This document shows positions 1 to 12,045 of a stretch of 15,527 nucleotides of DNA, in pieces. This stretch comes from Bacteroidota bacterium (GTDB taxonomy: Bacteria; Bacteroidota; Bacteroidia; Bacteroidales; JAAYUG01), in the NCBI GenBank assembly GCA_021812865.1, contig JAKAMP010000006.1, positions 1-15,527 of the forward strand. Direction: 5' to 3'. Under the pieces are notes generated by a model that ran no database searches, was not told the DNA's origin, and saw only the letters and a list, made by a program, of their open reading frames with translations. Positions within the stretch are counted from its first letter, which is position 1, and every line of letters begins with the position of its first letter. The position numbers and the translations under genes are program-made.

Positions 1-957
1 GCTGGAAACTTTCCTGCAGCGATCAAAACCGTGGCTGAATGGTTTCCCAGGAAGGAAAGGGCTTTTGCTACCGGTATTTTCAATTCAGGGACTAATCTCG
101 GCGCCATCATTGCTCCCCTTACGGTTCCTCTTATTGCGCTGAATTGGGGCTGGCAGTGGGCTTTCATTCTCACCGGCACCATAGGCCTGATCTGGATCGC
201 CTTCTGGTTCATGTTCTATGAAGTGCCTTCCCGGCATAAGAAGCTTTCAAAGACCGAATACGATTATATTCATATGGACCAGGAAGCTGAAGCAACTGAA
301 ACAGGAGAAGCCAGTATCAGCTGGTTCAGCCTGTTCCGTTACCGGCAAACCTGGGCTTTTTTCCTCGGTAAGCTGCTTACCGACCCCGTATGGTGGTTTT
401 ATCTGTTTTGGTTGCCTTCCTTTCTGAACAAGGAGTATGGCATGACAAAGACTGAGCTGGCATTCCCCATAGCTATAGTTTACAGCATGACTTTTATCGG
501 CAGCATTTTTGGCGGCTGGCTATCGGGGTACTTCATCGAACGCGGGTGGACTGTGGCCAGGGCAAGAAGCACAGCCATGTTCATCTTCGCCCTGTGTGTA
601 CTGCCTGTGATATCTGCCCAGGCGTTGGGAAAATTCAATCCATGGTTTGCCATCATCATTATTGGCATTGCCGCTTCGGCACACCAGGCATGGTCGGCGA
701 ACATTTTTACCACCGCAAGCGACATGTTTCCAAAGAAAGCAGTGGCATCGGTGGTTGGTATCGGTGGAATGGCCGGGGCAGTGGGTGGCATACTCATTGC
801 CGGTTTTGCAGGTATCATCCTCGACCATTTCAAAGCCCTGAACCATATTGAAACCGGCTATTACATCCTATTTTTTATTTGCGGATTTGCCTACATCACA
901 GCCTGGGTGGTAATCAACCTGGTGGCTCCAGGTATGAAAAGGGTGGAAATGAAATAA
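1..957 (+). CDS. exuT: ExuT-type hexuronate MFS transporter, C-terminal part (5' end outside window)
   Basis: This is an inner-membrane major facilitator superfamily permease of the anion:cation symporter branch, which imports hexuronates such as galacturonate or glucuronate with protons. The frame is open from base 1, so the gene starts left of the window and 318 residues are visible. The first codons read AGNFPAAIKTVAEWFP, followed by KERAFATGIFNSGTNLGAI. This is the conserved ExuT/GudP-type segment around helices 4-5. The rest shows the expected hydrophobic segments separated by a central cytoplasmic loop rich in E, K and T (about residues 75-105). The protein ends at a TAA after a short basic tail. 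The substrate is inferred from this family signature and from uxaC in the same window. Related permeases carry glucarate, so substrate choice is moderately certain while the family is secure. Confidence 0.85.
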   Translation, partial: AGNFPAAIKTVAEWFPRKERAFATGIFNSGTNLGAIIAPLTVPLIALNWGWQWAFILTGTIGLIWIAFWFMFYEVPSRHKKLSKTEYDYIHMDQEAEATETGEASISWFSLFRYRQTWAFFLGKLLTDPVWWFYLFWLPSFLNKEYGMTKTELAFPIAIVYSMTFIGSIFGGWLSGYFIERGWTVARARSTAMFIFALCVLPVISAQALGKFNPWFAIIIIGIAASAHQAWSANIFTTASDMFPKKAVASVVGIGGMAGAVGGILIAGFAGIILDHFKALNHIETGYYILFFICGFAYITAWVVINLVAPGMKRVEMK

Positions 958-1016
958 TCCGGGCCGGAATAAGGTTTTTAACAGGATTAGCCTTTCTTCA
1001 CCATAATTTCATTAAC

Positions 1017-1493
1017 ATGAACATCCTGATCATTTACGATTCCTTTTTCGGGAATACCGAGAAGATAGCTTTTGCCATGAGGGATGCCCTGCAGGGTTCT
1101 GCCACTGTTCAATGCATTCGCATCCATGAAGTCGTCCCTGAGAAACTGAATGACATCGATCTTCTCATAGTCGGCTCGCCTACCAGGGGATTCAGACCTA
1201 CCAAACCCATCGTCCAATTTTTAGACAAACTGCCGGCCGATATACTTAAAAATGTTAAAGTAGCTGCCTTCGACACCAGGATCGACGTGGCTAAGGTGAA
1301 TTCACGCTTCCTGCATTTCATGGTCAGAATATTCGGGTATGCTGCCCAGCCTATAGCCGGCCGGCTTTCCAGGAAAGGAGGAACGATGGGTGCATCACCC
1401 GAAGGATTCATCGTTAAAGAATCTGAAGGACCCCTGGAGGATGGAGAGCTTGAAAGGGCGTACAAATGGGCAAAAGAGCAGGCCGGAGTTTAG
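1017..1493 (+). CDS. Flavodoxin-family protein
   Basis: This is a 158-residue flavodoxin-like FMN protein. The ATG at 1017 was chosen because it begins directly at the first beta strand (MNILIIYDS); upstream in-frame codons overlap the end of the transporter gene and encode no domain. The FMN phosphate loop is visible as S9-FFGNTEKIA, the usual T/S-x-x-G-N-T pattern. The second flavin loop is GSPTRGF at residues 53-59. The C-terminal half (GTMGASPEGFIV and a final acidic/basic helix) agrees with a long-chain-like single domain. Proteins of this kind carry one or two electrons at low potential in the cytoplasm. Its partner is unknown. It lies 60 bp after the transporter and about 450 bp before the Hdr-like operon, so a role as an electron carrier for that complex is possible but not shown. 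Confidence 0.8.
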   Translation: MNILIIYDSFFGNTEKIAFAMRDALQGSATVQCIRIHEVVPEKLNDIDLLIVGSPTRGFRPTKPIVQFLDKLPADILKNVKVAAFDTRIDVAKVNSRFLHFMVRIFGYAAQPIAGRLSRKGGTMGASPEGFIVKESEGPLEDGELERAYKWAKEQAGV

Positions 1494-1945
1494 CCAGATA
1501 AAATGATTGCTGCGACCTGTTATTTCCTGTTCATGATACGAAGGAGTGACCTGCGGTTTACCTGAATAGATCACGGAATCTCAAACTTCAAACCGCATAT
1601 TGGAATCGGTAGCCAGAGCGTAGACAAGTGGTTGCCATGCCCTATTCAATCCATCTTTTTTCCTGCCTCTTGAGAGCATGCATTTGCCTCATTTGAAGAT
1701 TTGTCAGCCACAGACGAATACCAGAGAAACCCTTCGCTCCCCGCTTGACCAGCCATACCATGCGCTGAGAACAGCAGACCAAGCCCGTAAGTATAAATAC
1801 CACCTTTGTATAAGCTAAAACGCTTATAGTAATTATTTCACAAGCATTACGCATTTAGTCTGTTTTTTGAATGGCCTGTAAGCCATACATTTGTTTTGTG
1901 GAGAAAAGGCTGGATTCTGAAGGGTATAATCGATAAAACACATAC
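1494..1945. other. 452-bp stretch without a convincing gene
   Basis: Nothing here reads as a protein gene on the plus strand. On the minus strand a 70-codon open frame (1854 to 1642) has no recognisable domain, and other minus frames just beyond it give short protein-like strings that are interrupted by stops. This could be a decayed gene or chance. No tRNA cloverleaf or strong terminator hairpin was found. The right end holds the candidate promoter of the Hdr-like operon. Confidence 0.4.
1866..1893 (+). promoter_or_regulatory. Candidate Bacteroidota-type promoter of the Hdr-like operon
   Basis: TACATTTG at 1886-1893 fits the Bacteroidota -7 consensus TAnnTTTG. A TTTG at 1866-1869 could be the -33 element. 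The spacing of 16 bp is a little short of the usual 19-21 bp. The start codon of the first gene lies 52 bp downstream. This is the best match in the intergenic region, but it was judged by eye only. Confidence 0.4.
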
Positions 1946-2650
1946 ATGGGAGCTCTTTATGACAGGTTGAAACAGGATATCCGTTTTGAAGAGGGACTGA
2001 AAGCCTGCATCAACTGTGGAACCTGCACTGCCATTTGTACAGCCGCGGAATTCTATGACTACGATCCCCGGCTGGTGACCGACACTGTGCAAAGCAAAGA
2101 CGATGCAAAAATCGAGGCCTTGCTGAAAAGTGAGACGATATGGTATTGCGGGGAATGCATGTCGTGTAAAACCCGTTGCCCTCGCGGCAATACGCCCGGT
2201 CTCATCATCATGGCACTGCGTTCTCTTTCACAGGAGATGGGTTATTTTGTGGAATCTGAAAAGGGGCGTCAGCAGCTTGCTCTGAAACGGATGGTGGGCG
2301 AAACCATTCTTGATTTGGGATATTGTGTTCATGCAAGTCACATGGATACAAGTTTGTTTCCCGAACAGGGACCAATGTGGGACTGGGTAAGCCAAAGCCG
2401 TAAGGAAGTATACAACCGCTTAGGCGCTAACTATGATGGCGAAGGATCTGGCGCCATGCGTAAAATACCCAGGGAATCCCTGAATGAACTGTCGGCTATA
2501 TTCGATCAAACAGGCGCTACGGAACGGTTTGAAAAGATAGAAAAACTTTCTGAAGAGAAGGCGAAGGAAATGGGCCTCGGATTTGATGAAGGCAAGTCCT
2601 GCGAATATTTTAATTATGTATATACCGGTAAACACCCGGAGGAATCATGA
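1946..2650 (+). CDS. HdrC-like iron-sulfur subunit of an Hdr-like complex
   Basis: This 234-residue cytoplasmic ferredoxin-type subunit resembles heterodisulfide reductase subunit C (sHdrC1/QmoC N-terminal class). Two [4Fe-4S] sites are visible: C21-x2-C24-x2-C27-x3-C31 and C68-x2-C71-x2-C74-x3-C78 followed by PRG. In the family these two cubanes relay electrons between the HdrA flavoprotein and HdrB. After the cluster domain comes an alpha-helical extension of about 150 residues, with a K/E-rich stretch near 190-210, that is longer than in minimal HdrC proteins and may serve in subunit contact. It is the first gene of a five-gene run. Its stop codon overlaps the next start by 4 bp (ATGA), which points to coupled translation. 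The family is secure, while the exact complex type (sHdr, Qmo-like or other) is inferred from the operon. Confidence 0.88.
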   Translation: MGALYDRLKQDIRFEEGLKACINCGTCTAICTAAEFYDYDPRLVTDTVQSKDDAKIEALLKSETIWYCGECMSCKTRCPRGNTPGLIIMALRSLSQEMGYFVESEKGRQQLALKRMVGETILDLGYCVHASHMDTSLFPEQGPMWDWVSQSRKEVYNRLGANYDGEGSGAMRKIPRESLNELSAIFDQTGATERFEKIEKLSEEKAKEMGLGFDEGKSCEYFNYVYTGKHPEES

Positions 2651-3717
2651 AATTAGAAGGTAAAAAGCGAATCTGGAGCGAATACCAGAAAGAAATTGCC
2701 GATGATCATTATTATTATGCCCGGAGCTGCATCCGGCAGAATTTTTTTCCCGCCTCGGAAACCATCTTCCTGCGTATCATGCAGCAGGAACTGGGAAAGG
2801 ATATCAAGGATGATGCCCGGCACACTACCTGTACGGGGATTGCATACCACAGCGATTTGGTTCCTTTCGACACAACCATGACGGTGGTGGCCAGGCTCTT
2901 CTCGCTGATGACGGAAGCAGGGTATGAAAACTATGCACCCTCATGCATCACTTCCTTCGGTTTGTATTCCGAAATCCTGGAAACATGGGAACATCACCCG
3001 GAAATTGAAGCCAGGGTGAGGGAACACCTGTGGAAATCTACCCGTCGCGAATTCAAAAAGCCTAAAAACCTGGCTCATGCCAGTGATATAGTATATAAAT
3101 TCAGGCACCGGATCGCTGAGAAAGGCAAATACAGGCTTGTAAATCATAAAACCGGTGAGCCGTTGAAGGTGGTGGAACACATTGGCTGCCACTATTCGCG
3201 CATGTTCCCGCATAAGGGAGTCGGAGGAGCTGAATATCCATACGTGCTGGTTGGAATGATCGAGGCCTGGGGAGGCGAAGTGGTTGATTACCCCGAACGC
3301 CGCCATTGCTGTGGTTTCGGCTTCAGGCAATACCTCGTTAAATCGAACCGTGGCTATTCCATTTCCAGTTCGAGGAAGAAATTTGAGAGCATGGAACCTT
3401 TCAAACCCGACATGATCATTACCAATTGTCCGGGCTGCCCCTACTTCCTTGACCGCTGGCAGTATGCCATCAGTGAAATGGAAGGTAAAACATATGGGGA
3501 GAACGGCAATGGTATTCCTGTGTTGACCTATGAAGAAACGGCCGGACTGGTAATGGGATATGATCCATGGGATCTGGGGTTTCAGATGCACCAGGTGTCG
3601 GTGGAACCGTTGCTCGACAAGATCGGTGTACCTTATGACCCTTATGCGAAATACCTGGGTGTGAACGGAAAATTTATCGGGACTCCCGAGCATCCCGAGG
3701 TTTTAAAAGTGTATTGA
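2647..3717 (+). CDS. HdrB-like CCG-domain subunit with a reduced first cysteine motif
   Basis: This 356-residue protein has the two-domain architecture of heterodisulfide reductase subunit B. HdrB holds non-cubane [4Fe-4S] clusters at which disulfide chemistry occurs. The C-terminal domain has a complete five-cysteine CCG motif: C181 (GCHY), C221-C222 (HCCGFGF), C261 and C264 (NCPGCPYF). The N-terminal domain is incomplete: C28 (SCIRQNF), a single C62 where CC is expected (TTCTG), and C100 (PSCITSF) where CxxC is expected. Three of five ligands therefore remain, so the first cluster may be an ordinary cubane or absent. An insert of about 80 residues separates the two domains. The gene starts within the stop codon of the HdrC-like gene and is followed 3 bp later by the HdrA-like gene. 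This one-complete, one-incomplete pattern favours a specialised HdrB rather than the methanogen enzyme. Confidence 0.85.
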   Translation: MKLEGKKRIWSEYQKEIADDHYYYARSCIRQNFFPASETIFLRIMQQELGKDIKDDARHTTCTGIAYHSDLVPFDTTMTVVARLFSLMTEAGYENYAPSCITSFGLYSEILETWEHHPEIEARVREHLWKSTRREFKKPKNLAHASDIVYKFRHRIAEKGKYRLVNHKTGEPLKVVEHIGCHYSRMFPHKGVGGAEYPYVLVGMIEAWGGEVVDYPERRHCCGFGFRQYLVKSNRGYSISSSRKKFESMEPFKPDMIITNCPGCPYFLDRWQYAISEMEGKTYGENGNGIPVLTYEETAGLVMGYDPWDLGFQMHQVSVEPLLDKIGVPYDPYAKYLGVNGKFIGTPEHPEVLKVY

Positions 3718-3720
3718 TGC

Positions 3721-4752
3721 ATGAAAAATGTTATTGTTATAGGTGGAGGAGTCGCTGGCATGGAATCGTCAGCCCAGCTTGCCGACATGGGATACCAGGT
3801 TACCCTGGTTGAAAAGGAAAGTAAGCTTGGAGGACATGTAGACCAGTGGGATTTTCTATTTCCGAACCACCGTCCCGCCCGCGAGATCATCGATTCGCTC
3901 AAGCAGCGTCTCAACTATAAGGTGGAGGTGAAGCTCGGAACGGAAGTGGAATCCATGCAGCGTAATAATGGACAATACGCCGTGAAACTGAACAGCACTG
4001 AAGTTCTTCATGCCGATGCCCTGCTGCTTGCTTCAGGCTTCGACCTGTTCCCCGCCCAGAAGAAAGAGGAATACGGATATGGTATATATAATCATGTGAT
4101 CACCGCTGCCGATCTTGAAGAAATTTTCCGTTCCGGAAATCTTCGTAAGGTGGTCTCTGGCAATACGCATCGCATCGGAATAGTGCATTGCGTGGGATCC
4201 AGGGATGAAAAAGTGGGTAACGAATACTGCTCAAAGGTTTGCTGTGTTACCGGGGTGAAACAGGCCATCAGGCTTCGCGAAGCTTTGCCGGAATACGAGG
4301 TGTTCAACTTCTATATGGACCTGCGCATGTTTGGCCGCTATTTTGAAGACCTGTACCGCGAAGCCCAGGAAAAATGGGGAGTGCAGTTTGTGCGTGGCCG
4401 TGTATCGGAAGCATCGGAGGATGTGAAAGGCAATGTGGTGGTGAAGGTAGAGGATACGCTTGCCGGCCGGCCCATGAAGATAAGCCTGGATCTGCTGATT
4501 CTCCTCACAGGCTTCATTCCGTCAAAGGGAACCTCCAGGCTGGGTGATTTGCTGCAACTCGAGTTTGGCAGTGACCGTTTTCTCAAACCTGCCGACGAAC
4601 ACCTGCTGCGAAATCATTCAAAACTGGAAGGTGTGTTTCTGGCGGGCGCCTGCACCGGACCCCGTTCCATTGCCGAAACCATTACCGATGCCAGGGCTGC
4701 TGTACTCGAAATAGCTGCTTTTTTCAGGGATAAAGTAACCGTGCATGAATAA
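3721..4752 (+). CDS. Short HdrA-like FAD flavoprotein
   Basis: This 343-residue flavoprotein belongs to the HdrA/QmoA/sHdrA family. Residues 3-13 (NVIVIGGGVAG) form the dinucleotide-binding fold, followed by the E31-KESKLGGHV segment typical of HdrA. C157 (HCVGSRD), C170, C174 and C175 (YCSKVCC) are the family pattern for a flavin-adjacent [4Fe-4S] site. The C-terminal FLAGACTGPRSIAETITDARAA stretch begins near residue 306 and closes the FAD domain. The protein lacks the N-terminal ferredoxin region and the C-terminal ferredoxin domains of full-length, bifurcating HdrA (about 650 residues), and so resembles the short sHdrA and QmoA forms. No NADH- or ferredoxin-oxidising partner is encoded nearby. 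It overlaps the next gene by 8 bp. It probably passes electrons between HdrC-type subunits through FAD; the direction cannot be told from sequence. Confidence 0.88.
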   Translation: MKNVIVIGGGVAGMESSAQLADMGYQVTLVEKESKLGGHVDQWDFLFPNHRPAREIIDSLKQRLNYKVEVKLGTEVESMQRNNGQYAVKLNSTEVLHADALLLASGFDLFPAQKKEEYGYGIYNHVITAADLEEIFRSGNLRKVVSGNTHRIGIVHCVGSRDEKVGNEYCSKVCCVTGVKQAIRLREALPEYEVFNFYMDLRMFGRYFEDLYREAQEKWGVQFVRGRVSEASEDVKGNVVVKVEDTLAGRPMKISLDLLILLTGFIPSKGTSRLGDLLQLEFGSDRFLKPADEHLLRNHSKLEGVFLAGACTGPRSIAETITDARAAVLEIAAFFRDKVTVHE

Positions 4753-5089
4753 ATTCGGATATACCATTAGCCGCGATAACCAGATCGATTACGATAAGGT
4801 GGACCGGAGCATGGCTGCATTCATCGAAAAAAATGAACCTACTTTCCGGATTTGCATACAATGCGGTTCCTGTGCAGCATCATGCAGCGCCGCCAATTTC
4901 ACCCGCTTCAGTTTTCGCAAACTGTGCCTGTTGATCAGGAGAGGATTGACCGACGATGTGCAGAAAGAGGTGAGCAAATGCATGCTCTGTGGCAAATGCA
5001 GGCTTGTTTGTCCACGCGGAGTCAATACCAGGAACATTATTCTGAACGTTCATCAGGCCCTTCACAAAACCACAGTGTATGAACTTTGA
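4745..5089 (+). CDS. Small second HdrC-like ferredoxin subunit
   Basis: This 114-residue protein has two [4Fe-4S] motifs, C37-x2-C40-x2-C43-x3-C47 and C79-x2-C82-x2-C85-x3-C89-PRG, spaced as in HdrC and in the HdrC half of QmoC. The 30-residue N-terminal arm has no recognisable motif, and there is no membrane segment. The ATG at 4745 lies inside the end of the HdrA-like gene (8-bp overlap), and its own end overlaps the following membrane gene by 11 bp. That position, between HdrA and a membrane-anchored CCG protein, matches hdrC2 in sHdr clusters. It probably connects the soluble C1-B1-A part to the membrane subunit. It is shorter than the first HdrC-like protein (234 residues), so it is unlikely to be a simple duplicate. 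Confidence 0.85.
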   Translation: MNKFGYTISRDNQIDYDKVDRSMAAFIEKNEPTFRICIQCGSCAASCSAANFTRFSFRKLCLLIRRGLTDDVQKEVSKCMLCGKCRLVCPRGVNTRNIILNVHQALHKTTVYEL

Positions 5090-6905
5090 TGTTTTTACAT
5101 TGCCTTTTTCAGTCGGACTGGTGTTCATCATCAGCTATTTCCTGGCTATGTGTATACAGTGGATAAGGAACCTTTCCGCTACTGAGAGGCTTCTGCTGGT
5201 GAAAGGGATATTTTCATTCAAGACCTTCACTTCCATCAAAGAGGTGGTACTCGAAAGCCTCCTGCACCGGAAAATTTTCAGGGTCAACCCCCTGCTGGGT
5301 TATATGCACATGAGCCTTGCCTTTGGCTGGTTCATGCTCATTATCATGGGAAACCTCGAAGCAAGGGCATACAATCCCATTCCCATTCACCCGCCTTATT
5401 ATCCCATCTTCTTCCGCTTTTTTGAACCCGATACAGGAACCTTTAAATATTCGGTTTTCTACGAATTTCTCATGGATTTTCTTCTGCTGTTTATCCTCAG
5501 TGGCGTGAGCTTAGCCTATTTCAAGCGGTTCAGGTCAATGGCGCTGGGAATGAAACGGACCTCCAAACTGAAATCGTGGGACAAATGGGCCCTTGCTGCT
5601 TTATGGATGATCTTTCCCCTTCGTCTGCTCGCGGAAAGTTTCACCTCCGGTATTTATGAAAGCGGTGGGTTTCTTACCGGTACGCTGGGAAGGTTTTTTG
5701 CCGAATTTCTTCCGGTTGAATACCTTGCATACCCTGCCTGGTGGGCCTATTCCATTGCCCTGGGAACCTTCTTTATCAGCCTGCCTTTCAGCCGTTACAT
5801 GCATATTCCCACAGAAATCGTTCTTATATTTTTCAGGAATTACGGCATCCGTTCTTCAGAGAAAATCAATGGCTTTGCCGATATCGAAGTGAAATCGTGT
5901 TCGCGTTGCGGGATTTGCATCGATGTGTGCCAAATGTCGTCCAGCCTGAATCAGCAGAATACCCAGTCGGTCTATTTTCTTCGATCTGTTCGCGACCGGT
6001 CAATGACCAAATCGCTGGCCGATCAGTGCATGGAGTGCGGTAGATGCTCGCAGATATGCCCGGTAGGGATCGATCTCAACACCCAGCGCTACCTGGCAAG
6101 AAGAAGAGTTCATGAGGAGTTCCGCTCCGATTTCAGCTACCTGCCCGATTTGCAGACCCGTAAAACCGACGTGATCTTTTTTGCGGGATGCATGGGGCAT
6201 CTTACCCCGTCGGTGATCCATTCCATGAAAAAGGTGCTTGATCATGCGGGTATTCGTTACTGGTTTATGGATGAAGATGGAAGCATTTGCTGCGGTCGTC
6301 CGCTCAAACTGGCTGGCAAGGCTGAAGAAGCCGCACAACTTATGAAAAAAAACAGGGCAGCGATCCTGGCCTCAGGGGGAACCACCTTTGTAACCTCCTG
6401 TCCCATCTGCCTGAAAACATTCACTGAAGATTATGACCTCAAACAGATGAGGCTGTATCACCATTCCCAATACCTCCTGAAACTCTGGTTTGAAGGGAAA
6501 ATCCAACTGGAAAAGCAGATGCAGAAGGCGGTATACCATGATCCCTGCGAGCTCGGACGTGGCCTTGGCATTTACGATGAACCCCGGGAACTGATTCAAC
6601 GGATGATGATCCTCAAGGAACCTGAAAACACCGGAGAAAATGCTTTGTGCTGCGGAGGAAGCCTTGCACACCAGGAAATGTCATCCGTTCAACGCAGGAA
6701 AATTGCATTCGATGCAGCTGCCAAACTTACAATTGATCATCCCGATTACCTTGTCACCGCTTGTCCTTCCTGCAAGAAAACCTTTCAGCAAGCTTCACCG
6801 GTTGAAGTGAAAGATGTGGCTGAACTGGTGTATGCAGCCATTCAGGACCGGGGCAGAAAAACAGCTCTGAAATCCAGGGAGATTGCCGCTGCTGAAGCTA
6901 ATTGA
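5079..6905 (+). CDS. Membrane-anchored Fe-S protein: heme-b-type domain fused to HdrD/DsrK-like CCG domains
   Basis: This 608-residue fusion has a membrane half and a soluble half. Five hydrophobic helices (about residues 9-29, 74-94, 130-150, 170-187, 220-239) resemble the NarI/DsrM/HdrE anchor. H77 (YMHMSLAFGW) and H242 (RYMHIPTE) are candidate heme b ligands. Two [4Fe-4S] motifs follow: C274-x2-C277-x2-C280-x3-C284 and C317-x2-C320-x2-C323-x3-C327. Two complete CCG motifs come next: C371/C404-C405/C441/C444 and C490/C524-C525/C562/C565. The architecture equals HdrE plus HdrD, or DsrM plus DsrK, in one chain. In those families the membrane part exchanges electrons with menaquinone and the CCG part acts on a disulfide. 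As last gene of the operon (11-bp overlap with the preceding gene) it is the likely quinone module of the complex. Its physiological substrate is unknown. Confidence 0.88.
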   Translation: MNFDVFTLPFSVGLVFIISYFLAMCIQWIRNLSATERLLLVKGIFSFKTFTSIKEVVLESLLHRKIFRVNPLLGYMHMSLAFGWFMLIIMGNLEARAYNPIPIHPPYYPIFFRFFEPDTGTFKYSVFYEFLMDFLLLFILSGVSLAYFKRFRSMALGMKRTSKLKSWDKWALAALWMIFPLRLLAESFTSGIYESGGFLTGTLGRFFAEFLPVEYLAYPAWWAYSIALGTFFISLPFSRYMHIPTEIVLIFFRNYGIRSSEKINGFADIEVKSCSRCGICIDVCQMSSSLNQQNTQSVYFLRSVRDRSMTKSLADQCMECGRCSQICPVGIDLNTQRYLARRRVHEEFRSDFSYLPDLQTRKTDVIFFAGCMGHLTPSVIHSMKKVLDHAGIRYWFMDEDGSICCGRPLKLAGKAEEAAQLMKKNRAAILASGGTTFVTSCPICLKTFTEDYDLKQMRLYHHSQYLLKLWFEGKIQLEKQMQKAVYHDPCELGRGLGIYDEPRELIQRMMILKEPENTGENALCCGGSLAHQEMSSVQRRKIAFDAAAKLTIDHPDYLVTACPSCKKTFQQASPVEVKDVAELVYAAIQDRGRKTALKSREIAAAEAN

Positions 6906-7021
6906 TGTTCGTTCCCAGCCATATGAGAAAGCAACTGCCTGATTTCTTCTACAGCCGGGTGCTGCCCTCCGGAATCCATTGTGAATCATTGAATACGAAC
7001 TGTCTGCCCAAAGTTAAAATT

Positions 7022-7978
7022 ATGAGGAACCTCGCATTCAGCTTTCATGCTGTTTTACTCGCCACGATCCTGCTCCTTTCTTCCTGTGGTAGATCGGTTA
7101 AAAAGAGTGAGATTGCCGGCGATGTAAGCATCTCAGGTGCATTTGCTTTATATCCTATCGCAGTTCAGTGGGCTGTGGAATTTCATAAAGTACACCCCGA
7201 TGTCCAGATTGATATTTCAGCCGGCGGGGCAGGGAAAGGCATTACCGATGCGCTGAGCAATATGGTCGACCTGGGCATGGTTTCCCGGTCCATTTCGCCC
7301 GAAGAGATTGCCAAGGGAGCATGGTTCATTGTTGTAGCCCGCGATGCTGTGATTCCGGTTGTCAATGCATTGAACCCCGTATTGGACAGCTTGCAATTAC
7401 ATGGAATGACCCGGGAACAGATGATTTCCGTTTTTATAAGTCATTCAATAACCAACTGGGATCAATGCTTTCATACTCCTTTAAACGGACGGATAAATGT
7501 ATATACGCGTTCTGATGCCTGCGGGGCCGGTGAAATGTGGGCCAGGTACCTGGACGGGGTACAGAATGATATTCAGGGGGTTGGTGTGTACGGCGACCCG
7601 GGAATGGCCGATGCCCTGAAATCGGACAAAAACGGAATCGGGTATAATAACCTTATTTTTGCCTACGATATGCATACGCGCAAGGTATACAACGGATTGG
7701 CTGTTGTTCCCATTGACCTCAATGGAGATGGTATCATTGATTCATATGAGAGTTTCTATCAGAATATTGATTCCCTGATGTCGGCCGTCCGGCATGGTCT
7801 GTACCCCTTTCCACCGGGCAGGGAATTGTACTTTGTCTGTAAAGGTAAACCCACCAGCAAAACGGTGGTTGCCTTCCTTCGCTGGATACTTACAGACGGT
7901 CAGCAATATCTCTCTGATGCAGGATATGTTAAGTTGCCAGCAGATATGGCCGAATCCGAGCTAAAAAAACTGGATTGA
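7022..7978 (+). CDS. pstS: PstS-like phosphate-binding lipoprotein
   Basis: This 318-residue substrate-binding lipoprotein belongs to a phosphate-type ABC importer. The ATG at 7022 was chosen because it begins a signal peptide with lipobox LSSC (lipidated C22); the frame opens earlier, at 6902, but the extra 40 codons are not signal-like. Family motifs include SISGAFALYPIAVQW (residues 37-50), the oxyanion-binding SAGGAGKGITDAL (66-78) and RSDACGAGEMW (163-173). A loop at 232-243 (D232, N234, D236, G237, I239, E243) matches an EF-hand calcium loop; similar acidic loops occur in this subfamily. The protein is expected on the outer face of the inner membrane. The next genes encode the permeases and ATPase. 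Phosphate is the likely ligand, although other oxyanions cannot be excluded by reading alone. Confidence 0.82.
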   Translation: MRNLAFSFHAVLLATILLLSSCGRSVKKSEIAGDVSISGAFALYPIAVQWAVEFHKVHPDVQIDISAGGAGKGITDALSNMVDLGMVSRSISPEEIAKGAWFIVVARDAVIPVVNALNPVLDSLQLHGMTREQMISVFISHSITNWDQCFHTPLNGRINVYTRSDACGAGEMWARYLDGVQNDIQGVGVYGDPGMADALKSDKNGIGYNNLIFAYDMHTRKVYNGLAVVPIDLNGDGIIDSYESFYQNIDSLMSAVRHGLYPFPPGRELYFVCKGKPTSKTVVAFLRWILTDGQQYLSDAGYVKLPADMAESELKKLD

Positions 7979-8020
7979 AATGGTTGGTATTTCAACAATC
8001 ATGCGGTTGAGCACATCTGC

Positions 8021-8989
8021 ATGTGGAATATAAATGCCGGTGCTGAACCAGGTGTAAATACTTCAAAACGGATGAAAGAAAGGCCCATAGGACCGAAAAT
8101 ATTCTCATTGAACCGTTACCTGAAAGACAGGGTAGGGGAAACCTGGATGATCATCGCCTTTGTTATGGTACTGCTGTTGCCTTTCATTGTTGGGGCAGGA
8201 CTTTATTTAAAATCAAGGATTCTTCTGCAGGAGCATTCTATCTGGACATTGCTGGTTTCGGGAAACTGGAACCCACAGAAAGGTGAATTCGGTCTGGCTC
8301 CCTTTATTGTCAGTTCATTATGGGTGACAGCGCTTGCCGTGCTCATAGCTGTTCCTGTAAGCCTGCTTTCAGCCATTCACCTCACACAATATGCGCGGAA
8401 ATGGTTTCTGAACGCCATGCACCCGGTAATCGATATTCTTGCAGGGTTGCCCTCGGTTATTTATGGCGTGTGGGGTGTACTGGTAGTGGTGCCTTTTGTA
8501 AAACGTCTGGCAGAATGGTTTGATATTTCGGTTTCAGGGTACAGCATTCTTGCAGGAGCCATCGTGCTGGCCATCATGATTATTCCCTTTATACTGAATA
8601 TCCTGATAGAAGTATTCCGCACCATTCCGGAAGAACTTACGGAAGCATCGCTATCCCTGGGTGCAACACACTGGCAGACCATCAAGAGGGTACTGCTCCG
8701 GAAGGCTGTAACAGGAATCATTTCGGCTGTGGTGCTGGGCGTTTCCAGGGCTTTTGGCGAGACTATCGCTGTGCTCATGGTGGTGGGCAATGTGGTTCAT
8801 ATTCCCAAAGGAGCGTTCCAGCCCGGCTACCCGTTGCCTGCATTGATCGCCAATAATTACGGGGAGATGCTTTCCATTCCCAGGTATGAAGCTGCGCTCA
8901 TGCTATCGGCCCTGGTGCTGTTCAGCGTGGTGCTGCTCTTTAATTTCGCTTCACGTATAGCCATTGTTCAATTCGAAAAACGCGTCTGA
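8021..8989 (+). CDS. pstC: Phosphate ABC transporter permease PstC
   Basis: This 322-residue inner-membrane permease shows about six hydrophobic helices (near residues 42-64, 93-117, 139-160, 178-197, 235-257, 292-312). Its cytoplasmic EAA loop, E208-ASLSLGATHWQTI, docks onto the ATPase. The GLPSVIYGVWG segment (142-152) and SRAFGETIAV (242-251) are PstC hallmarks. The start is uncertain: ATG at 8021 gives a 17-residue extra leader, while ATG at 8072 (MKERPIGPKIF) gives a more usual N-terminus. It begins 42 bp after pstS and is followed 3 bp later by pstA. PstC and PstA together form the phosphate channel. Confidence 0.87.
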   Translation: MWNINAGAEPGVNTSKRMKERPIGPKIFSLNRYLKDRVGETWMIIAFVMVLLLPFIVGAGLYLKSRILLQEHSIWTLLVSGNWNPQKGEFGLAPFIVSSLWVTALAVLIAVPVSLLSAIHLTQYARKWFLNAMHPVIDILAGLPSVIYGVWGVLVVVPFVKRLAEWFDISVSGYSILAGAIVLAIMIIPFILNILIEVFRTIPEELTEASLSLGATHWQTIKRVLLRKAVTGIISAVVLGVSRAFGETIAVLMVVGNVVHIPKGAFQPGYPLPALIANNYGEMLSIPRYEAALMLSALVLFSVVLLFNFASRIAIVQFEKRV

Positions 8990-8992
8990 AAA

Positions 8993-9853
8993 TTGAAACT
9001 GAATTTCCGGAAAACAGAAGAATACTTCTTCAGACTGGTGATGCTGGCCTGTACGGTGGTGATTGTGGCTGCCCTGCTGGTAATCATCTTCAGCATCCTG
9101 AAACGCGGGCTTCCCTCGCTCAGTTGGGAGATGATATCCCAGAAGCCAAAGGGTGGGTTTTATTTCGGCAAGGAAGGCGGCATACTGAATGCCATAATGG
9201 GTTCACTTTACCTGGCCATAGGAGCCACTGTCATTGCCATGTTTGTGGGCGTACCGGTGGCCCTGTATATGAATGTGCATATTCTCAAAAGAAAGTACAT
9301 GGTCAATACCATGCGCTTCCTGCTCGACCTGCTGTGTGGTATACCTTCCATTGTGTATGGCGCGTTTGCTTTCACCATCATGGTGATGATCGGACTGCGT
9401 ACCTCCCTGCTGGCCGGAATGCTAACTGTGGCTGTATTTATCATTCCCATCATCATCAGGGCTATGGATGAGGTGCTAAGGACCATCCCCCGCGGACTGA
9501 TGGAGGCCTCCTTGTCGGTGGGCGCAACAAAAGGAGAGGTGGCGTACAAAATATTTATCCGGCAATCCTTTCCCGGACTGGTTACTGCGTTGCTGCTCTC
9601 CTTTGGCCGGGCAATTGGCGATGCCGCAGCGGTGCTCTTCACTGCCGGATTCACCGACAATATACCATCTTCCCTTACCCAGCCTGCAGCAACCCTTCCG
9701 CTATCCATTTTTTTTCAATTAGGTTCGCCCATGGAAGAAGTGAAAAATCGTGCTTATGCTGCTGCCATAATCCTTACCCTGATTGTTCTCCTGCTCTCGG
9801 TGGCATCCCGGTATTTCTCCCGGAGGTATAAAAAACACAGTATTAAATTCTGA
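8993..9853 (+). CDS. pstA: Phosphate ABC transporter permease PstA (TTG start)
   Basis: This 286-residue permease is the partner of PstC. Helices lie near residues 16-35, 70-93, 110-133, 139-156, 200-218 and 254-273. The EAA loop is E171-ASLSVGATKGEVAYKI, and GIPSIVYGAFAF (116-127) and FGRAIGDAAAV (204-214) match PstA. The preferred start is a TTG at 8993, three bases after the pstC stop, because it gives the usual short basic, amphipathic N-terminus (MKLNFRKTEEYFF). An ATG at 9041 would begin inside the first helix and looks too late. The gene ends 2 bp before pstB. Confidence 0.86.
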   Translation: MKLNFRKTEEYFFRLVMLACTVVIVAALLVIIFSILKRGLPSLSWEMISQKPKGGFYFGKEGGILNAIMGSLYLAIGATVIAMFVGVPVALYMNVHILKRKYMVNTMRFLLDLLCGIPSIVYGAFAFTIMVMIGLRTSLLAGMLTVAVFIIPIIIRAMDEVLRTIPRGLMEASLSVGATKGEVAYKIFIRQSFPGLVTALLLSFGRAIGDAAAVLFTAGFTDNIPSSLTQPAATLPLSIFFQLGSPMEEVKNRAYAAAIILTLIVLLLSVASRYFSRRYKKHSIKF

Positions 9854-9855
9854 GT

Positions 9856-10617
9856 ATGAGCGAAACTATAAAGATAAATATCCGAGATCTCAACCTGCAT
9901 GCAGGAAAGAACCATATTCTCAAAAATGTCAATATTTCTGTTCCGAAGAATAAGATCACGGTAATCCTTGGCCCGTCAGGTTGCGGCAAAACCACGCTGC
10001 TCAAAACACTCAACCGGCTTACCGATCTGAACCCGGAGATCAGGGTAACCGGCTCTATTCAAATCGACGAGGAAGATATCCTGCATACTACCAGCGACAT
10101 TCACGACATAAGGAAACGTATGGGACTGCTTTCCCAGCGCCCGTACCCTCTTCCCATGTCGATATTTAATAATGTGGCTTTCGGACTGAAGATCAGCGGG
10201 AGGAGAAGGAAGAAAATACTGCATAAAAGGGTGGAGCATTACCTCCGGCAGGCAAGCCTTTGGGACGAGGTTCAACACCGGCTAAGGGAACCAGCCATTA
10301 GCCTGTCAATTGGTCAGCAGCAGAGGCTTTGCCTGGCACGCGGACTGGCTGTAGATCCCGATATCATCCTGGCCGATGAGCCTACATCGGCCCTCGACCC
10401 CGTATCCAGCGCTGCTATCGAAGAGAAATTTATCGAACTGAAGAATAATTATACCATCGTGGTGGTGACTCATATCCTGAGGCAGGCCAGGCGCATTGCC
10501 GATCATGTGGTGTTCATGTATATGGGCGAGGTGGTGGAACAGGGCCCGGCAGCGGAAATATTACACAATCCGCAAATGGAAAAGACCAGGCAATACTTAA
10601 ATGGAGCCTTTTACTGA
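9856..10617 (+). CDS. pstB: Phosphate ABC transporter ATP-binding protein PstB
   Basis: This 253-residue cytoplasmic ATPase energises the PstCA channel. Walker A is GPSGCGKTT (39-47) and the Q-loop is LLSQRPYPLP with Q94. The signature motif at 150-154 reads LSIGQ instead of the usual LSGGQ. Walker B is IILADEP (170-176), followed by the D-loop SALD (178-181), and the switch histidine is H206 in VVVTHILRQA. NRLTDLNPEIRVTG after Walker A and MEKTRQYLNG at the C-terminus are typical of PstB. The length agrees with the family (about 250). No phoU follows: the next gene is convergent, only 21 bp away. Confidence 0.88.
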   Translation: MSETIKINIRDLNLHAGKNHILKNVNISVPKNKITVILGPSGCGKTTLLKTLNRLTDLNPEIRVTGSIQIDEEDILHTTSDIHDIRKRMGLLSQRPYPLPMSIFNNVAFGLKISGRRRKKILHKRVEHYLRQASLWDEVQHRLREPAISLSIGQQQRLCLARGLAVDPDIILADEPTSALDPVSSAAIEEKFIELKNNYTIVVVTHILRQARRIADHVVFMYMGEVVEQGPAAEILHNPQMEKTRQYLNGAFY

Positions 10618-10638: not shown

Positions 10639-12045
10639 CTAATCGTAAAATCCAAAGTAATCTCTCGCGTTGAAATAGCTGATGTCTTCAACCATTTTAC
10701 CCAGCCGGTTCATATCGTTGGGCAGCTCCCCTTTTTCAACGTCATTGCCCAGGAGGTTGCACAGTATCCGTCTGAAATACTCATGGCGCGGATAGGACAG
10801 GAAGCTGCGGCTGTCGGTGAGCATACCCACAAAGCGACTCAGTAACCCGAGTTGACTCAATGTATTCAATTGTCTTTCAATCCCGTCTTTCTGGTCCATA
10901 AACCACCAGCCGCTGCCGAACTGCATCTTGCCGGGAACTGACCCGTCGTTGAAATTGCCGCACATGGTTGCGATCATTTCATTATCGCGGGGATTGAGAT
11001 TGTACAGGATGGTTTTGGCCAGACGTTGGTTCCGGTCCAGCCGGTCAAGGAATTTTGAAAGGGGGCGGGCCATTTCGGAATCTCCGATGGAGTCAAAGCC
11101 TTTGTCCGGTCCCAGTGCCTCGAACAGACGAAGCGAATTGTTTCGCAGTGCCCCGGTATGGAATTGCTGTACCCAGCCCCGTTCATGATCCATCAAGGCA
11201 AAATGTACCAGCATGGCCGATTTGAATTTGCGAATCTCCTCAGGCTGAACACTTTCGCCTTTTCTAGCCTTGATAAATATTTTATTTACTTCCGTTTCGG
11301 TATAATCTTCGGCAACCATGGTTTCCAGTCCGTGGTCGGATAGCCGGCATCCCATGGAATGAAAGAAATCATGCCGGCCCTGCAATGCATATAGCAGATC
11401 GTTCAGGTCTGCAATTTCAGTATTGGATGTTTCTTCCAGTTTTAGCAAATAAGCATTATAGGCATCGGGGTTTTCAATGGCCATGGCTTTGTCGGGCCTC
11501 CAGGCGGGCAAAACCATGATTTCAAATCCGTCCTTCCTTATGCGAAAATGATGTTCCAGGCTGTCTGCAGGATCATCGGTGGTGCAAATCACTTCAACCT
11601 TCATCATCCTGAGAAGGTTACGCACGCTATATGCAGGAGTACGCAGCATGGCATTGGCCTTTTCCCAAATTTCAGCGGCTGTGTCGGGATTCAGCAAAAG
11701 CTCAATTCCAAAGGTTCTTTTCAGTTCAAGGTGGGTCCAATGATAAAGCGGATTCCGGTATGCATAAGGAACCGTTTCCGCCCATTTCTGAAATTTCTCC
11801 CTGTCGGAGGCGTTGCCCGTGCAGTATTTTTCTTCCACTCCATTGGCCCGCATGGCCCTCCATTTGTAGTGATCACCTTCAAGCCAAATCTGTGCCAGGT
11901 TGTCGAACTGCCTGTCGGTGGCGATATCTTCGGGCGAGAGGTGGCAGTGGTAATCGATGATGGGCATCCTGGCTGCGTGCTCATGATAAAGAATTTCTGC
12001 GGTGCGGCTATGCAGGAGGAAGTTTTCGTCAAGGAATTTTTTCAT
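10639..12045 (-). CDS. uxaC: Uronate isomerase (glucuronate/galacturonate isomerase)
   Basis: This 468-residue cytoplasmic enzyme converts D-glucuronate to D-fructuronate and D-galacturonate to D-tagaturonate, the first step of hexuronate catabolism. It belongs to the amidohydrolase superfamily. The N-terminus MKKFLDENFLLHSRTAE leads into the metal-site motif DYHCH (H33, H35). Other family segments are CTTDDPADSLEHH (154-166), RPDKA (183-187), HTGALRNN (296-303) and LTDSRSFLSYPRHEYFRR (409-426). The length matches the usual 465-475. It lies 133 bp downstream of the glycosidase-like lipoprotein gene on the same strand and converges with pstB. The other uronate pathway genes (uxaB, uxuA, kduD-like) are not in the window. 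The ExuT-like permease at the left edge is the probable import partner. Confidence 0.95.
   Translation of the reverse strand: MKKFLDENFLLHSRTAEILYHEHAARMPIIDYHCHLSPEDIATDRQFDNLAQIWLEGDHYKWRAMRANGVEEKYCTGNASDREKFQKWAETVPYAYRNPLYHWTHLELKRTFGIELLLNPDTAAEIWEKANAMLRTPAYSVRNLLRMMKVEVICTTDDPADSLEHHFRIRKDGFEIMVLPAWRPDKAMAIENPDAYNAYLLKLEETSNTEIADLNDLLYALQGRHDFFHSMGCRLSDHGLETMVAEDYTETEVNKIFIKARKGESVQPEEIRKFKSAMLVHFALMDHERGWVQQFHTGALRNNSLRLFEALGPDKGFDSIGDSEMARPLSKFLDRLDRNQRLAKTILYNLNPRDNEMIATMCGNFNDGSVPGKMQFGSGWWFMDQKDGIERQLNTLSQLGLLSRFVGMLTDSRSFLSYPRHEYFRRILCNLLGNDVEKGELPNDMNRLGKMVEDISYFNARDYFGFYD

Follow-up and report, generated by a model that had tools for sequence, protein, structure and literature searches.

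A conserved five-gene Hdr-like operon with a membrane-fused last subunit in the Bacteroidales

Proteins of the Hdr families serve several described redox systems. The type I sHdr cluster, as in Hyphomicrobium denitrificans, runs C1-B1-A-hyp-C2-B2, with a soluble HdrB2, a hyp gene and LbpA (PMC6067878), and type II is defined by shdrC1B1AHB3 and etfAB in one cluster (PMC11582611). In a survey asking for six ordered sHdr subunits at 40% identity, 334 of 406 were assigned to Proteobacteria metagenome-assembled genomes (MAGs) (PMC12345210). FlxABCD-HdrABC and QmoABC draw on the same HdrA, HdrB and HdrC families, and the membrane proteins EtfD, EMO and FadF combine a heme b domain with two [4Fe-4S] clusters and two CCG domains. 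In the literature we found, the nearest cases are heliobacterial clusters in which HdrABC and a smaller HdrD are accompanied by a downstream heterodisulfide cytochrome reductase (PMC13209566), and a membrane-bound Hdr-like complex reported from Aquifex aeolicus. Here we describe a five-gene operon at positions 1946–6905 (+ strand) of contig JAKAMP010000006.1 from a Bacteroidota bacterium of the order Bacteroidales (GCA_021812865.1); the whole 15,527-nucleotide stretch analyzed is called the window below. The operon encodes HdrC1-, HdrB1-, short HdrA- and HdrC2-like proteins and a membrane subunit with two CCG domains, and appears to be a variant of the Hdr/sHdr kind not previously described in the literature we found. 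We give roughly even chances to the reading that it specifies a self-contained, membrane-anchored Hdr-like complex that would act as a thiol-to-menaquinone oxidoreductase in many Bacteroidales.

The five open reading frames (ORFs) form one tight unit on the + strand, with adjoining ends overlapping by 4, 8 and 11 bases and a single 3-base gap. The HdrC1-like protein (1946–2650, 234 aa) matches Pfam Fer4_8 and, below its cut-off, the NCBIfam HdrC model; the HdrB1-like protein (2647–3717, 356 aa) has a Pfam CCG domain. They are followed by a short HdrA-like flavoprotein (3721–4752, 343 aa) with an FAD/Rossmann fold and a Pfam FAD/NAD oxidoreductase match, an HdrC2-like protein (4745–5089, 114 aa) with a Pfam Fer4_8 domain and two [4Fe-4S] motifs, and the membrane subunit (5079–6905, 608 aa), in which Pfam recognizes a dicluster ferredoxin and two CCG domains. 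Every match of an NCBIfam Hdr model to these proteins scores below the curated cut-off, and databases name the subunits after Hdr among the matches listed. The initial annotation had described an sHdr-type gene order, HdrC1-HdrB1-short HdrA-HdrC2-(CCG protein), whose last subunit is fused to a membrane domain of its own; both points are supported.

This arrangement is widely conserved. When the window and 45 further loci of the order were compared by tblastn, C1-B1-A-C2-E (where E is the membrane subunit) lay on one strand in 40 of the 46 loci, two loci had the order C1-C2-E-B1-A, and four held a partial operon (L051, where E lies at a contig end, L052, L070 and L073); L043 and L055, whose contigs are both 101,093 bases long, probably represent one genome. 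With 40 of 46 loci in agreement, the five-gene order is therefore not a matter of chance. Neighborhood clustering detected no other family in more than six of 47 loci and hence no sixth conserved gene, with a crude ORF caller that recovered HdrC2 in only 34 loci and that a small gene could escape. In a comparison of 80 genomes, HdrB1 was present in all 40 carriers of the membrane subunit and in none of 40 non-carriers, defined as genomes without a membrane-subunit match (Fisher p 2e-23; the match in G406 is a piece at a contig end). These sets of 40 were hand-picked from the 90 carriers and 205 other genomes described below and differ slightly between tests. The co-occurrence holds where the genes lie apart: in G395, G512 and G609 (f57 genomes) HdrB1-HdrA is on a different contig from the last subunit, and in G483 HdrB1 and the last subunit are likewise on different contigs.

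Such complexes had been called little described in this setting by the initial annotation, but the module is no rarity: at E ≤ 1e-30, a search of 295 genomes of the order recovered the membrane subunit in 90, our own included, and in 82 of the 244 of good quality. Across the phylum, HdrA matched at E ≤ 1e-40 in 15 of 395 genomes, our own among them. The best of the other 14 matches reached 3.9e-65, the level of type II sHdr, and they have the flanks of apparent Qmo, long-HdrA or type II sHdr loci; the 395 also took in five other genomes of the order, which gave no HdrA match at this threshold. The relatives of HdrA and HdrB1 were taken as the best 120 listed, from which absence outside Bacteroidota is not readable. 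Named carriers from one scan, covering six loci, were a Marinifilum sp. MAG and five Bacteroidetes or Bacteroidales MAGs, one of the carriers being from horse faeces.

The cluster ligands of the soluble subunits are also conserved. Both [4Fe-4S] motifs of HdrC1 (C21, C24, C27, C31 and C68, C71, C74, C78) keep all eight Cys in 38 of 38 aligned loci, as do the two motifs of HdrC2 in 34 of 34. HdrB1 matches HdrB of solved Hdr structures with a best E of 7e-28, and its columns are on average 72% identical, against 50% for the membrane subunit (24 of 39 and 30 of 44 sequences taken in, respectively). Methanogen-type HdrB is marked by two complete five-Cys sites, whereas module HdrB1 has a complete C-terminal CCG site (C181, C221, C222, C261, C264) and a defective N-terminal one, reduced to C28, C62 and C100. 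We aligned to 5odc 158 module HdrB1 sequences (39 loci plus 119 of the best 120 listed matches, one over-long match being excluded; not all are independent) and 120 type II sHdrB1 sequences, the best 120 of 2,076 matches. The positions of Cys9, 42, 78, 153, 193, 194, 231 and 234 (5odc numbering) are Cys in all 158 module sequences, Cys41 is replaced by Thr (134) or Ser (24), and Cys81 is replaced by Ser throughout. Type II sHdrB1 has Ser at Cys81 in 119 of 120 sequences and Thr in the other one; at Cys231, where the module has Cys261, it has Asp in all 120. In Hdr, Cys81 and Cys234 are the residues that bridge at the catalytic irons (PMC13083937). Based on these site patterns, only one of the two Hdr-type catalytic sites survives in the module, the other having been lost in the same way as in type II sHdrB1.

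An HdrB1 tree of 63 rows placed the module in a group of its own, inside neither type II sHdrB1 nor HdrB, with SH-like approximate likelihood ratio test (SH-aLRT) support of 86, 98 and 99 for the three groups; the tree was made by a quick method, is unrooted, carries SH-aLRT values only and has between-group branches of about 3 to 6 changes per column. Because these branches are very long, kinship with sHdrB1 is drawn from the shared Ser103 and Thr/Ser61 pattern and not from the tree. HdrA is a near full-length match to 6tjr (349 aa), its profiles match in two pieces that flank a missing insert, the inserted ferredoxin part being absent, and Cys157, Cys170, Cys174 and Cys175 are all present in 40 of 40 aligned loci. 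Bifurcating HdrA proteins have extra ferredoxin domains and an FlpD/MvhD partner; the module protein has 343 aa and FlpD is not associated with it (see below). In a tree of 40 rows, with 23 module sequences out of the 40 available and only three sHdrA rows, module HdrA (100/98) and sHdrA (100/100) came out as sister clades with their union at 99/95. The rows treated as Qmo, Flx-Hdr and methanogen HdrA fell outside, three QmoB-like rows being nearest (96/97). In this tree, module HdrA is thus the sister of sHdrA, placed next to it and outside it; few reference rows entered the trees, and most of them came from this phylum. Against these references, neither HdrA nor HdrB1 falls firmly inside a characterized group that has the same fused subunit.

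The membrane subunit consists of an N-terminal membrane domain (with H63, H77 and H242), a dicluster ferredoxin (C274–C327) and two CCG domains, each with five Cys (C371, C404, C405, C441, C444 and C490, C524, C525, C562, C565). The eight ferredoxin Cys, all ten CCG Cys, H242, H461, H462 and H487 occur in 44 of 44 loci, and H63 and H77 in 43. The candidate heme-binding residues H63, H77 and H242 align with those of EMO proteins. The five helices counted in the initial annotation were not recovered by a crude hydropathy scan, which gave four windows, two of them overlapping. The nearest solved chain is 9ojn (E 5.7e-15), whose residues T539, H583 and C584 fit the numbering used for EtfD, in which heme b is bound via His78 and His241 with a putative menaquinone close by (PMC13083937). 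The subunit has the EMO/EtfD architecture of membrane domain, dicluster Fer4, two CCG domains and bis-His pattern, its heme being predicted. In place of the CxxH of the first EtfD CCG domain, however, it has C441-P-I-C444, and it forms a separate clade (98/99) in a tree of 39 rows that took in 20 of 44 module sequences and from which we rely on clades only. There EMO groups with EtfD (99/97), and a 15-row clade of EMO, sHdr-EMO, HdrB3 and two Chlorobi CCG rows (99/98) excludes the module; without the two Chlorobi rows the support is only 88/80. Support for joining the module to the DsrK rows is weak (56/9), in a part of the tree where long branches come together.

On present sequence comparisons, the module falls under the tested definitions of neither sHdr type, nor of Qmo, Flx-Hdr or EMO. 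With type I sHdr of H. denitrificans it shares the C1-B1-A ... C2-(CCG protein) order and the HdrA match to 6tjr; its HdrA and HdrC2 genes, however, overlap by 8 bases with no hyp gene between them, and its last gene encodes a 608-aa membrane protein instead of HdrB2. Type II sHdr occurs in two genomes of the phylum, one of them named Chloroherpeton thalassium, as LbpA, C1, B1, A, B3, EtfB, EtfA, EMO and a DsrE-like gene. In the C. thalassium locus (L063), where gene names rest on sequence comparison and PMC11582611, the HdrC1-HdrB1-short HdrA start, a nearby membrane CCG protein and a sister HdrA are common to the module. That locus further contains LbpA, EtfB, EtfA, a fused HdrB3 and, between HdrA and HdrB3, a 251-aa gene, and its 679-aa EMO has lost the first CCG site, whereas the module membrane subunit retains both. 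The module, by contrast, has a separate HdrC2, and neither the window nor the loci of the order gave a match to LbpA or, at E ≤ 1e-6, to EtfA or EtfB. A thioredoxin match was also seen between LbpA and HdrC1 in the C. thalassium cluster, near 11252 (-).

A search for lbpA, as the initial annotation had advised, likewise gave no LbpA-level match in 41 module genomes, our own included (one query). Matches were obtained in 40 of the 41, with a best E of 4.9e-21, compared with 2.9e-105 and 2.4e-71 for LbpA in the two sHdr genomes and 1.1e-21 for a second, GcvH-like match in C. thalassium; five of the 41 had two or three lipoyl-type matches, left unexamined, and our own genome is 78.7% complete. 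HdrDE of methanogens also pairs a membrane heme protein with an HdrD-type two-site CCG protein (PMC13083937), while the module has one polypeptide plus HdrCBA-C2. Compared with the EtfD, EMO and FadF family, the module subunit stands in a clade apart, has five-Cys sites where that family has CxxH and Thr variants, and is tied to an Hdr operon. Neither the long HdrA plus FlpD of FlxABCD-HdrABC nor the two HdrA-type subunits and HdrC-type membrane subunit of QmoABC are found in the module, which has one HdrA in a clade apart from the rows taken as Qmo.

In the reading of the module as a thiol-to-menaquinone oxidoreductase, the C-terminal noncubane site of HdrB1 would oxidize a thiol, a persulfide or a thiol protein in the cytoplasm. 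HdrC1 would relay the electrons to the flavin and cluster of HdrA, and HdrC2 would hand them on to the membrane subunit, where they would pass the ferredoxin domain and heme b before reducing menaquinone. Most thiol/disulfide couples are more negative in potential than menaquinone, and the proposed direction is based on these textbook values. That the five proteins act as one complex, that electrons flow in this direction, and that a thiol is the substrate and menaquinone the acceptor are all inferred. For this reading we count the conserved gene order, the co-occurrence of HdrB1 with the last subunit, the HdrA clade sister to sHdrA, the HdrB1 C-terminal site, kept in 158 of 158 sequences including the equivalent of the bridging Cys234, and the heme histidines aligned with EMO together with the heme b and putative menaquinone of EtfD, the one protein of this kind for which an electron wire has been proposed from structure (PMC13083937). 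It is possible, and we say so tentatively, that this is an undescribed respiratory complex, retained in many Bacteroidales, that couples a thiol/persulfide pool to the quinone pool via three complete noncubane-type Fe-S sites.

Genomic context offers a few further clues. In G483, the C1-B1 pair lies among DUF5714, thioredoxin, thioredoxin reductase, OsmC and thioredoxin genes, with A-C2-E elsewhere. In G418, the operon adjoins DsrE2-DsrE-TusA-FlpD-QmoABC with one opposite-strand gene intervening, the only one of the order's loci searched with DsrE, TusA and FlpD beside the module. A similar cluster in G457 has nearby a fragment of HdrB1 that contains two stops. We count the G483 and G418 neighborhoods for the thiol reading. 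A menaquinone-pathway marker (MqnA/D or MenD above cut-off, MenD being scored by TIGR00173 since PF16582 alone is too insensitive) was found in 32 of 40 carriers and 29 of 40 non-carriers, with a weak association for MqnA/D (24/40 vs 14/40, p 0.04 uncorrected).

Several observations weigh against this reading. The thioredoxin context is found in one genome and the TusA/Qmo context in one. Second C1-B1 pairs in G467, G473 and G615 (L166, L167, L168) stand with DUF134 and NifX-type (Nitro_FeMo-Co) genes, joined in two of the three by MinD-type ATPases, and suggest other uses; we take these clusters to resemble orange-protein operons. FlpD is not associated with the module (33 of 90 carriers vs 64 of 205 others, p 0.42, with 290 genomes searched and five more counted as negative), and neither DsrC (16/40 carriers vs 11/39 non-carriers) nor TusA (17/40 vs 15/40) tracks it. 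Neighborhood clustering found no conserved substrate gene near the operon. Eight of 40 carriers (G395, G402, G428, G435, G464, G474, G500 and G609), all listed as at least 96% complete, have neither MqnA/D nor MenD. The genomic clues thus favor thiol or sulfane-sulfur chemistry, but they are few and no tested partner tracks the module.

The same features could be read differently. A module running in reverse, or energized, so that reduced flavin or quinol drives cytoplasmic disulfide reduction as in the membrane HdrDE of methanogens, seems unlikely, though both CCG sites of the membrane subunit keep five Cys in 44 of 44 loci, as Hdr catalytic sites do, and EtfD overlays on an HdrDE model (PMC13083937). 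Against such a reversal, HdrA is short and its profile matches split around the missing insert, FlpD adjoins only in G418, and no other family is conserved beside the operon (hydrogenase and NADH-module genes were not searched separately). The sister relationship to sHdrA, the Ser at the HdrB1 Cys81 position (158/158 in the module, 119/120 in type II sHdr) and the TusA/DsrE/Qmo neighbors in G418 would fit an sHdr-like sulfur oxidation, in which carrier-bound sulfane sulfur becomes sulfite and quinone takes up the electrons. We regard this as quite unlikely, given 41 module genomes without an LbpA-level match (one query; best E 4.9e-21), loci of the order in which EtfA/EtfB found no match and only G418 has adjacent DsrE and TusA, TusA not associated overall, and Asp in type II sHdrB1 where the module has Cys261.

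The HdrB1 site and the CCG pair of the membrane subunit could also act on two different thiol pools, with quinone as regulator or third partner, and there is indeed one complete five-Cys site in HdrB1 (158/158) and two in the membrane subunit (44/44); the equivalent EtfD clusters are, however, shielded and described as an electron wire, one being non-catalytic (PMC13083937), and we find two thiol sites improbable. More improbable still is that the membrane subunit is an EMO/EtfD fed by Etf and acyl-CoA dehydrogenases, the Hdr subunits being accessory. Architecture and heme motif are identical in kind and an EtfD chain is the best solved relative, but the module clade (98/99) lies outside the 15-row clade holding EMO (99/98), a five-Cys site replaces the CxxH site, HdrB1 co-occurs in 40 of 40 carriers, our own genome has a separate EtfD-type CCG protein, and EtfA/B gave no match in the order's loci (Etf was not searched genome-wide).

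This EtfD-type protein is on contig C127, and two further Hdr systems lie on other contigs of the genome. Contig C57 (L116, G000; 1768–8423, +) carries HdrC-HdrB-long HdrA-FlpD followed by Fe-S and NAD(P)H-type oxidoreductase genes; we take the latter to be Flx-like and the whole to be a separate soluble Hdr system. The initial annotation had seen no lipoate-binding protein, TusA or MvhD gene, and LbpA, TusA and FlpD gave no match in the window; FlpD/MvhD is, however, present on C57, and no TusA was found in the genome. Contig C433 (L084, G000; 4–3197, -) has a QmoA/QmoB-like pair. Clusters of this kind, resembling Flx-Hdr and Qmo, are separate systems that occur in this genome or elsewhere in the order. 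Two Bacteroidales genomes have a DsrE, DsrE2, TusA, FlpD, QmoA, QmoB and QmoC-like cluster (L173 11051–17168; L177 12077–15001 with L059 1–5634), and TusA and FlpD matches were about 600 bases apart or less in 14 of 80 genomes when compared by eye; these clusters resemble an independent sulfur-carrier/Qmo system. Another CCG protein, placed with DsrK rows on long branches, adjoins a DsrC gene in a genome of the order assembled as one contig (G615:C1:2462560-2464712).

The assembly, in which the window makes up contig C421, comprises 3.17 Mb in 553 contigs and is listed as 78.7% complete. G+C is 0.489 in the operon and 0.476 in the remaining window. A binning error is unlikely because the window HdrA pairs with that of G437, of the same family, in the HdrA tree (100/98). 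Directly after the operon, 6902–10617 (+) reads to us as a phosphate ATP-binding cassette transporter set (PstS-like lipoprotein, two permeases, ATPase), and 10639–12045 (-) is presumably a uronate-isomerase-like gene, named from its translation. A major facilitator superfamily gene of galactonate type (NCBIfam) occupies 1–957, and Rfam and tRNA scans of the window found nothing.

No description of the module was found in titles and abstract starts of the open-license PMC literature, which leaves most subscription papers outside, nor in the available parts of PMC12345210, PMC6067878, PMC11582611, PMC10266427, PMC6085437, PMC13209566, PMC7382037, PMC9137090, PMC8470020 and PMC13083937. This conserved five-subunit redox module is present in some 30% of the genomes sampled from the order, and a name of its own would help surveys to tell it apart from sHdr and methanogen-type Hdr. 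As the sister group of sHdrA, its HdrA bears on what the sulfur-oxidizing system was built from. If thiol electrons do enter menaquinone through this complex, electron disposal in these presumed fermenters would have to be drawn differently, and supposedly fermentative anaerobes would gain a thiol-driven electron entry to anaerobic respiration.

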